From contig JAFGRK010000008.1 in the NCBI GenBank assembly GCA_016935175.1, forward strand, positions 1-56,702: a DNA stretch of 56,702 nt. Direction: 5' to 3'. Position numbers and translations under genes: made by a program. Positions within the stretch are counted from its first letter, which is position 1; each line of letters starts with the position of its first letter. This DNA is from Candidatus Woesearchaeota archaeon. Lineage in GTDB: Archaea; Nanobdellota; Nanobdellia; Woesearchaeales; SM23-78. Under the pieces are notes generated by a model, which was given only the letters and a program-made list of their open reading frames with translations, had not been told where the DNA came from and searched no databases. This document shows positions 28,958 through 33,021 of the stretch, piece after piece.

Positions 28958-28991
28958 TGCAAAAAAGGTAATGAGCCTAATTTTAAAAAAC

Positions 28992-29000
28992 TATTTAAAA
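28992..29000 (+). promoter_or_regulatory. TATA box of tRNA-Thr
   Basis: TATTTAAAA is centred about 31 nt before the first tRNA base. It is the only visible promoter that could serve both the tRNA and the methyltransferase gene just after it. Confidence 0.65.
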
Positions 29001-29046
29001 GGGCTGCAAATCATAGCAATAATTACGCCTCTGTGGCTCAGTGGTA

Positions 29047-29088
29047 CAGCAAGCGGAAAAAGCAGTTGCTCTCCATTGTTGCACGCCA
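29047..29088 (+). other. 42-nt D-loop intron of tRNA-Thr
   Basis: The insertion between GTGGTA and the D-stem strand GAGC contains AGCAA/TTGCT pairing. Removing it restores a standard D-arm. Confidence 0.7.
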
Positions 29089-29104
29089 GAGCACGTCCTT
29101 GGTA

Positions 29105-29162
29105 CCGCAGGCTGAAAAGCCGAGGACGCAAAAATCAAGATTTTTGCGACGCGAAGGCAAAT
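29105..29162 (+). other. 58-nt composite anticodon-loop intron of tRNA-Thr
   Basis: This intron lies at canonical 37/38. Its first ~18 nt (with a GGCTGAAAAGCC hairpin) would already form a complete intron, because AGGACG follows at once (29123-29128). A further hairpin insertion then repeats AGGACG (29163-29168). This looks like a second insertion with a 6-bp duplication. Confidence 0.65.
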
Positions 29163-29184
29163 AGGACGGGGTCGAGGGTTCAAT

Positions 29185-29215
29185 AGGATTTTCACGTGAA
29201 GTGAATTCCGGAAAG
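29185..29215 (+). other. 31-nt T-loop intron of tRNA-Thr
   Basis: The insertion lies at the same site as in tRNA-Asp and tRNA-Arg, after TTCAAT and before CCCTC. It can form a GGA(T)TTTCAC/GTGAATTCC hairpin. Its sequence is not clearly related to the Asp/Arg intron. Confidence 0.75.
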
Positions 29216-29241
29216 TCCCTCCAGAGGCTTGAAATAGAAAA

Positions 29242-29967
29242 ATGGCAGATGCAAGAGAAGTCGGGTATGATGCACAAGAACATACTGGCTTGGTCAATAC
29301 TATTCTTGCAGAAACCAAATTAAAGCCTTACAATATTTTTCGGCATGCCGATCTGAGAGGGAAAAAAATAGTGGACATAGGTTGTGGCGATGGTGAATTG
29401 TGCAGAACTAGTGTCGCCAGAGGCGCACAGTATGCTATGGGTATAGATGGAAAACAAGATATGATAGATATTGCTTCTTCATTAAATTCTCAATACGAGG
29501 GAAAAGTGGAATTCAGACAAGGATTTATTGAAGACCTGTCCGGGGATGAAACGTTTGATGTGGCAATTCTTTCCTATTTATTGAATAATGCCAAAGACTT
29601 CAAGCAACTGACACAACAATGCAGAAGTACAGTATCATTTTTGAAACCAGGAGGAATGGCTGTCATTTTCAACAATAACCCATTCGATGTCCTTGGCGGG
29701 GATTTCACAAAATATGGTTTTAGAAAAACGCTCACCGGATTGAGAGATGGAGATCCAATAATTTATGATTATCGCCCGGCAATTAATTCTGATATAATCA
29801 ATTATTATCTTAGTCCAGAGAAACACGAAGCAGCTTTCCAAATCGCAGGCTTTTCAGAATTCGCATGGAAACCCATCCAATCCTATCCTGGCGCAGATCC
29901 TGTGTTCTGGCATGATTATTTTAACAGGGGAAATCTACCAGTTATAGGGATATTGGGCAGGAAATAA
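29242..29967 (+). CDS. Class I SAM-dependent methyltransferase (cassette gene)
   Basis: 241 residues. The SAM-binding motif I is KKIVDIGCGDGEL near residue 42, with MGIDG as the acidic second strand and FDVAILSYLLN as motif IV. The substrate is unknown. Codon use is more A/T-ending than in the neighbours (many AAA, GAT, ATT, GGA), suggesting transfer. No TATA box lies at the expected distance. The ATG is 12 nt after tRNA-Thr, so 3' processing of the tRNA would free an almost leaderless message. A hairpin AAGCC/GGCTT plus T-run (29987-30002) follows the gene. A copy of the tRNA end lies beyond it. Confidence 0.85.
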   Translation: MADAREVGYDAQEHTGLVNTILAETKLKPYNIFRHADLRGKKIVDIGCGDGELCRTSVARGAQYAMGIDGKQDMIDIASSLNSQYEGKVEFRQGFIEDLSGDETFDVAILSYLLNNAKDFKQLTQQCRSTVSFLKPGGMAVIFNNNPFDVLGGDFTKYGFRKTLTGLRDGDPIIYDYRPAINSDIINYYLSPEKHEAAFQIAGFSEFAWKPIQSYPGADPVFWHDYFNRGNLPVIGILGRK

Positions 29968-29986
29968 ATAAAGAGATAACAAGGAC

Positions 29987-30002
29987 AAGCCGATGGCTTT
30001 TT
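29987..30002 (+). terminator. Hairpin plus T-run after the methyltransferase
   Basis: AAGCC-GAT-GGCTT followed by TTT, 20 nt after the stop codon at 29967. It lies inside the cassette. Confidence 0.5.
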
Positions 30003-30094
30003 AGTAAGGGGTTTGGCTATGATAAAAAACACTCTCCAGAGGCTTAATTTTATTTTATTATTTTAATATCTTAAAAAAATTCAAGGGTGATAAC

Positions 30095-32792: not shown

Positions 32793-32915
32793 GCGGGCGT
32801 GCCGGAAGGCAAAAGTGAGCTTTTGCACCGTCACGCACCGAGTGCAAGAAACTATACATGCGGGCGTGCCGGCAGTCAAAAATCAGAGATTTTTGGGCCG
32901 CCACTCTCCGCTAAC
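32793..32915 (+). repeat. Two extra copies of the tRNA-Leu 5' end, each with an A/T hairpin
   Basis: GCGGGCGTGCCGG, the first 13 nt of tRNA-Leu (32916-32928), also occurs exactly at 32793-32805 and 32860-32872. Each copy is followed by a perfect hairpin (GCAAAAG/CTTTTGC at 32809-32826; CAAAAATC/GATTTTTG at 32877-32895) and then an imperfect complement of the 13-mer (GCGTG/CACGC and CGG/CCG in unit 1; GCGG/CCGC, GTG/CAC and CGGC/GCCG in unit 2). The best TATA box (32741-32750) lies before both, so they should be in the tRNA leader. Confidence 0.88.
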
Positions 32916-33021
32916 GCGGGCGTGCCGGAGTGGAAAACGGGCAGGACTTAAGTTCAAGCCTAAAGCTGATAAGCTATCCTGTGGCTTAGTGCCTACGAGG
33001 GTTCGAACCCCTTCGCCCGCA
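32916..33021 (+). tRNA. tRNA-Leu(TAA) with anticodon-loop intron
   Basis: Acceptor strands GCGGGCG/CGCCCGC pair and the discriminator is A. A long variable arm (TGGCTTAGTGCCTAC) marks a class II tRNA. The anticodon stem is CAGGA/TCCTG and the loop C-T-TAA-G-A. A 23-nt intron lies at 37/38 (32953-32975), leaving 83 nt. The T-arm GAGGG-TTCGAAC-CCCTT is not interrupted, unlike in tRNA-Asp, -Arg and -Thr. Two partial copies of its 5' end precede it. Confidence 0.93.

Follow-up and report, generated by a model that had tools for sequence, protein, structure and literature searches.

A methyltransferase gene between two copies of a tRNA-Thr 3' end in a Woesearchaeales archaeon, and tRNA-end copies across the order

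Insertions and introns at archaeal tRNA genes

Several families of archaeal mobile elements (the SSV, pNOB8, pT26-2, SNJ2 and pTN3 types) integrate at tRNA genes through att sites of 8-14 bp, preferably at 3' ends; pTN3-like integrases use the tRNA 5' half, and integrated elements that carry no integrase are known as well (PMC8371274). Disruption has also been described at the tRNA-Thr(GGU) gene of Caldiarchaeum subterraneum, for which a link between inserted DNA, a tRNA fragment and the gain of introns was proposed; according to the same study, the evolutionary causes of such disruption in tRNA genes had not been identified (PMC3293823). How archaeal tRNAs gain introns and why tRNA ends draw foreign DNA are both open questions.

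We analyzed a window of 56,702 nt, the whole stretch of DNA under study, from a Candidatus Woesearchaeota archaeon (contig JAFGRK010000008.1), in which a methyltransferase gene lies between a tRNA-Thr(GGU) gene and a second copy of that tRNA's 3' end. The tRNA introns, TATA-like boxes and XerA_Arch recombinases bear out that the DNA is archaeal. The Caldiarchaeum locus is its nearest precedent. Both loci combine tRNA-Thr(GGU), a direct repeat of the tRNA end around an insert and intron-rich tRNAs. However, the Caldiarchaeum repeat is a fragment of the tRNA 5' end, and the inserted 1.8 kb encode a putative recombinase (PMC3293823), whereas in the window a 3' exon is copied and the insert encodes a methyltransferase. 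Here, moreover, end copies occur at many tRNAs throughout the order. As with tyrosine-integrase elements (PMC8371274), the tRNA is restored at one border and a short copy of its end stands at the other. Unlike those elements, the insert is 803 nt long and holds a single gene, with neither an integrase nor other element genes, and many of its counterparts in the order are short hairpins (44-181 nt). Partial tRNA copies also mark the far end of inserts in Thermococcaceae, but those inserts span ~9-23 kb and have longer repeats (44 bp in PYG1), (PMC9897764), whereas inserts in the order studied here range from 45 nt to 1.3 kb and in some cases form short arrays. Archaeal integrons and CALINs (PMC9668308) share the single-gene units, the fixed site and, at some related loci, the folded imperfect hairpins that end the units, but no integron integrase or attC core was found here, and it is the end of the tRNA itself that is repeated.

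The tRNA-Thr(GGU) gene and the insert behind it

The tRNA-Thr(GGU) gene occupies 29027-29229 on the forward strand, as do all the features of the locus described below. Its exons (29027-29046, 29089-29104, 29123-29128, 29169-29184 and 29216-29229) are separated by four introns (29047-29088, 29105-29122, 29129-29168 and 29185-29215), located in the D loop, at 37/38, in the variable loop and in the T loop; the maximum cited for a tRNA gene is three (PMC3293823). When the introns were removed manually, with their ends set by hand, the spliced sequence formed a perfect 72-nt cloverleaf that ARAGORN called as tRNA-Thr(GGT). Because of the four introns, neither ARAGORN nor Rfam called a tRNA in the unspliced locus. 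A TATA-like box (CTATTTAAAAGG), recognized by eye at 28990-29001, ~26-37 nt before the tRNA, probably belongs to this gene.

A sequence-only reading of the window had noticed that the 3' end of tRNA-Thr recurs downstream, and we confirmed this. Exact copies of CTCCAGAGGCTT lie at 29219-29230 and 30034-30045, offset by 815 nt, with no further exact copy in the window. The upstream, functional copy, which is attL-like, falls inside the last exon plus one trailer base. The distal, attR-like copy corresponds to the end of that exon: when the repeat is extended to the left, 29217-29230 and 30032-30045 are identical at 13/14 positions, and the single C-to-T change in these 14 nt still allows pairing. 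In first-order random sequence, an exact 12-mer match within 815 nt has P ~2.5e-4. The rest of the 1.22 Mb genome contains one extra exact CTCCAGAGGCTT, on a different contig. We regard it as a coincidence, as it lies in coding-like sequence with no tRNA nearby.

The sequence beyond the distal copy resembles what is expected behind a tRNA. T makes up 75% of the 20 nt past this copy, compared to 15% of the 20 nt past the functional tRNA, and the T-rich tract at 30046-30064 is probably the original terminator region of the tRNA. Ahead of the distal copy, a weak candidate for an arm (AAGCC..TGG, 29989-30000) pairs with it (CCA..GGCTT) in the minimum-energy fold. By eye this suggested a conserved hairpin ending the insert, but the pairing is not significant against shuffled sequences (p ~0.11).

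The 802-803 nt between the copies contain a sole ORF, at 29242-29967, which encodes a class I SAM-dependent methyltransferase of 241 aa (Pfam Methyltransf_25, 2.5e-13). It falls below the cut-off of every specific curated family, and its closest solved structures are ToxA-type enzymes, which are small-molecule or other non-tRNA methyltransferases. The gene starts 12 nt past the tRNA, and this start is credible because the protein can be aligned from its N-terminus with a homologue in another family of the order (61% identity). GC3 is 0.33, compared to 0.46-0.60 in the neighboring genes measured, and the arginine codons are dominated by AGA rather than AGG. No TATA-like hexamer is visible by eye 20-40 nt ahead of the start. 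The earlier description of a single gene with codon habits of its own, a start 12 nt after the tRNA and no TATA box therefore stands.

The locus in relatives and the origin of the insert

We compared the genome of the window (G000) with four genomes of the same genus (G002, G003, G004 and G006), in which the orthologous locus can be recognized by the genes for a zinc protein and a DegT protein upstream of tRNA-Thr. The methyltransferase is absent from this locus in all four. In G002, G003 and G006, the tRNA-Thr end is uninterrupted and has neither gene nor repeat, although the sequences downstream have diverged and the empty site is not base-exact. Directly behind tRNA-Thr, G006 carries a gene for a low-molecular-weight phosphatase, followed by the DUF362 gene also found in the window. 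In G004, the tRNA is followed by a short hairpin insert that terminates in CTCCAGAGGCTT, the two copies being 76-77 nt apart. What stands behind tRNA-Thr thus varies among genomes of the genus. The sequence-only reading had proposed that a foreign gene was captured at the tRNA-Thr end, and these loci support it with empty sites, a different gene and a short insert in place of the methyltransferase.

The distribution of the gene is patchy. Among 353 genomes of the order, good homologues occur only in G333, which belongs to another family (61% identity), and in G274 (36%); at the threshold used, the gene is missing from 350 of the 353, including the rest of the genus, where no homologue exceeds 28-30% identity. 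For comparison, MetRS, which is essential and conserved, shows 53% identity for the pair G000 and G333, and 68-79% within the genus. That a gene missing from the other genomes of the genus encodes a protein more similar than MetRS between these two families points to horizontal acquisition. Viral contigs contain no close relative, GTDB contigs yielded one weak match, and the plasmid relatives are all below 60% identity.

The G333 homologue also lies directly behind a tRNA-Thr with the same end (CCAGAGGCTT), but this is the CGU isoacceptor and the neighbors are different. It has a TATA-like box of its own. No distal end copy could be detected at ≤2 mismatches in 12; a diverged downstream copy that we suspected by eye was not found at this threshold. 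The G274 homologue has no tRNA nearby. Conservation of gene and spacing across distant relatives, which the sequence-only reading had named as evidence against capture, is thus not what we see, since isoacceptor, spacing and flanks differ in G333 and the other genomes of the genus lack the gene.

The reading that we prefer, and hold at about even confidence, is that site-specific recombination at the 3' end of the tRNA-Thr(GGU) gene brought in the horizontally acquired methyltransferase and duplicated that end. It draws on the repeat, the gene-free loci in the genus, the patchy occurrence of the gene, its homologue behind a different tRNA-Thr, the displaced T-rich tract, the low GC3 and the frequency and strict directionality of tRNA-end copies in this group. 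Archaeal att sites of comparable length at tRNA 3' ends, and integrated elements that have lost their integrase, provide precedents (PMC8371274). The incoming DNA would have restored a functional tRNA in front of the insert and left a 12-14 nt copy of the last exon behind it, as attL and attR do, moving the T-rich terminator region of the tRNA downstream. The methyltransferase ORF is alone between the copies, with no integrase or other element gene, and the two PF00589 recombinases found in the genome, both XerA-type, are encoded on other contigs. A putative recombinase would therefore have acted in trans or been lost with the remainder of a larger element. The missing integrase counts against this reading, and so does the lack of a distal copy at ≤2 mismatches in G333. 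The locus has an end repeat at both borders, an intact tRNA and gene-free relatives, but we do not classify it as an intact tRNA-integrated element because an integrase on the insert, a defining feature, is missing.

The distal copy may nevertheless predate the methyltransferase, because end copies arise in this lineage without any gene. Gain of a short intron-like hairpin, of the kind that duplicates 12-15 nt of a tRNA at many loci of the order, would then have produced the copy, and the methyltransferase would have arrived later by ordinary horizontal transfer, replacing the hairpin. This order of events is a serious alternative, though the less probable of the two. In its favor, end copies are found at 38 of 201 tRNAs sampled in the order, nearly all with short non-coding inserts; G004 shows a copy and a short insert but no gene at the orthologous tRNA-Thr; and genes directly behind tRNAs are frequent in the lineage. 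In addition, TCTCCAGAGGCTT (with a shared T) is found in the distal copy of both G000 and G004 but at neither functional tRNA end. Against it, G006 has no copy even though it has the DUF362 gene of the window downstream, the CAGAAA..TTTCTG hairpin typical of such inserts is absent from the methyltransferase insert, in which arm pairing is not significant, and ordinary transfer does not predict that the G333 homologue would also lie at a tRNA-Thr. We favor insertion with duplication because of the copy-free G006 locus and the position of the G333 homologue.

A functional explanation, which we consider improbable, is that adjacency has been selected because the enzyme modifies tRNA-Thr or acts in threonine metabolism, with the repeat as a side effect. 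Although the gene stands directly behind tRNA-Thr in two families, the isoacceptors, spacing and neighbors differ between them, the gene is absent from 350/353 genomes, the G274 copy lies away from any tRNA, and the solved relatives, e.g. ToxA, act on small molecules or other non-tRNA substrates. It is more improbable still that the repeat arose by chance behind a tRNA that merely happens to be followed by a gene. About 29 of the 201 tRNAs do have an ORF start within 20 nt, and by our own estimate ~0.1 such matches are expected within 2 kb over the 118 tRNAs sampled in the genus, but the low P value at this locus, the lack of matches to wrong-direction or reversed keys and the T-rich tract behind the copy, where a tRNA terminator belongs, argue otherwise. 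Least probable, and rejected by the tests for an integrase and an attC core, is the integron-like cassette suggested by the sequence-only reading, taken here as a unit that inserts at the tRNA 3' end and is closed by a folded attC-like site: single-gene inserts, end-copy arrays at some tRNAs and imperfect hairpins ahead of distal copies would suit it, but the two recombinases found in the genome (93.6% complete) score 212.8 and 227.1 bits against TIGR02249, below the cut-off of 265, no GTTRRRY or RYYYAAC core could be read by eye in 29968-30045, and what recurs at each tRNA is its own end rather than a common core.

Under the preferred reading, insertion with duplication of the tRNA end, the methyltransferase would most simply be transcribed from the tRNA promoter, because the terminator region was pushed downstream. 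A co-transcript of this kind and its cleavage at the tRNA 3' end are plausible, and the mRNA set free would have a leader of 12 nt. The 12-nt spacing and the missing TATA-like box suggest that the tRNA promoter drives expression. The layout is not special to this gene, however. ORFs of at least 90 aa start ≤20 nt from the 3' end at ~29 of the 201 tRNAs, some at 2-5 nt, and some of these ORFs are probably spurious. This weakens the earlier claim of a promoterless gene behind a tRNA as a distinguishing feature: a gene close behind a tRNA is a habit of the lineage and not a mark of capture. The same counts suggest that tRNA-mRNA co-transcription may be widespread in the order. If gene-bearing inserts share this route, tRNA promoters could express incoming genes that bring no promoter of their own.

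tRNA-end copies across the order

To place the locus in context, we searched for copies of each tRNA's own 3' or 5' end (≤1 mismatch in 13) around 201 tRNA genes, 118 from seven genomes of the genus and 83 from 14 other families of the order. Such copies occur at 38 of the 201. Because the sample consists of tRNAs recognizable by the Rfam model, heavily interrupted tRNAs are under-represented in this count. In the genus, the 3' end recurs downstream 17 times at 15 tRNAs and the 5' end recurs upstream 9 times at 8 tRNAs; in the other 14 families, own-end copies were found at 17 of the 83 tRNAs. Among the genus controls, wrong-direction and reversed keys gave zero matches, keys from the tRNA interior 0 or 1, and keys from the next 13 nt 3. 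A further 623 kb farther from the sampled genus tRNAs contained neither an own-end nor a reversed-key match at the same threshold. In the stretches examined around tRNAs, no own-end copy lay ≥1.3 kb downstream or >130 nt upstream. A literature search with partial coverage of the literature found no description of order-wide tRNA-end copies. Together, these results point to a recurrent and little-described route of DNA insertion at tRNA genes.

Most end inserts are short, intron-like hairpins of 44-181 nt. On the 3' side, a frequent layout consists of the tRNA end, a spacer, an arm complementary to the distal copy, an inner hairpin and the distal copy, and inserts on the 5' side mirror it. The arm pairing is significant in several end inserts and not in others. 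The motif CAGAAA(N2-12)TTTCTG occurs 1.4 times per kb in tRNA introns and 2.7 times per kb in end inserts, compared to 0.010 elsewhere. Because this hairpin is enriched in both, we conclude that the inserts at tRNA ends and the introns within tRNAs represent one type of sequence. The hairpins are thus of the type found in the archaeal bulge-helix-bulge introns within these tRNAs, but, unlike such introns, they lie outside a complete tRNA and duplicate its end. The window insert shares with them an own-end copy beyond an insert inside the tRNA transcription unit, a copy that is followed here by a T-rich tract.

The 5' inserts lie inside the tRNA transcription unit, because a TATA-like box precedes the distal copy in 6 of 11 cases and the tRNA itself in 0 of 11. 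On the 3' side, T-richness behind distal versus proximal copies, taken over all cases, differs in the expected direction, but with p 0.068. Younger-looking cases have longer duplications, of 31 nt including flank in G005 (contig C20) and 24 nt in G003 (contig C57). Gene-size inserts are rare; we found the methyltransferase of the window and a nucleotidyltransferase/HEPN pair in G005.

One mechanism could connect these observations. Small mobile intron-like hairpins may insert at tRNA loops near either end, duplicate that end, stack, and occasionally pick up genes such as the methyltransferase and the nucleotidyltransferase/HEPN pair, while the same elements inside tRNAs would be introns. We offer this only tentatively and think it rather unlikely. 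If it were true, a single mechanism would lead both to new tRNA introns and to gene capture at tRNAs. In an order in which about one fifth of the sampled tRNAs carry end copies, with hairpins shared by introns, both the gain of tRNA introns and the attraction of foreign DNA to tRNA ends become testable by comparing close strains.

Individual loci show further variations. At L145 in G005 (contig C20), the duplication extends 13 nt into the downstream flank. Only the second copy contains a T-loop intron, so that the arrangement resembles a tandem of tRNA 3' halves, one intron-bearing and one intronless. The tRNA-Gln at L139 in the same genome (contig C5, 1739-1641, minus strand) has three copies of its 3' end; the nucleotidyltransferase/HEPN pair lies between the second and third, and a similar 45-nt sequence precedes both distal copies. 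Behind the tRNA-Thr(GGU) at L232 in G025 (contig C1), two tandem paralogous genes are each fronted by a near-identical leader and a copy of the tRNA-Thr 3' end. We left this 740-nt case out of the cassette count because a tandem gene duplication that included the tRNA-Thr end and leader explains it better.

In the genome of the window, the tRNAs at L054 (contig C26) and L053 (contig C12) are each flanked on both sides, by a copy of the 5' end upstream and of the 3' end downstream, and their hairpin inserts are mirror images. Within the window itself, end copies are present at 3/3 tRNAs identified. The intron-bearing tRNA-Lys(TTT) (6134-6010, minus strand) is followed by tandem copies of its 3' end (GTCCGGCTCAT) at 5957-5947 and 5899-5889, with a related hairpin insert ahead of each. 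A third tRNA, probably tRNA-Leu (32916-33021, plus strand), has upstream copies of its 5' end (GCGGGCGTGCCGG) at 32860 and 32793.
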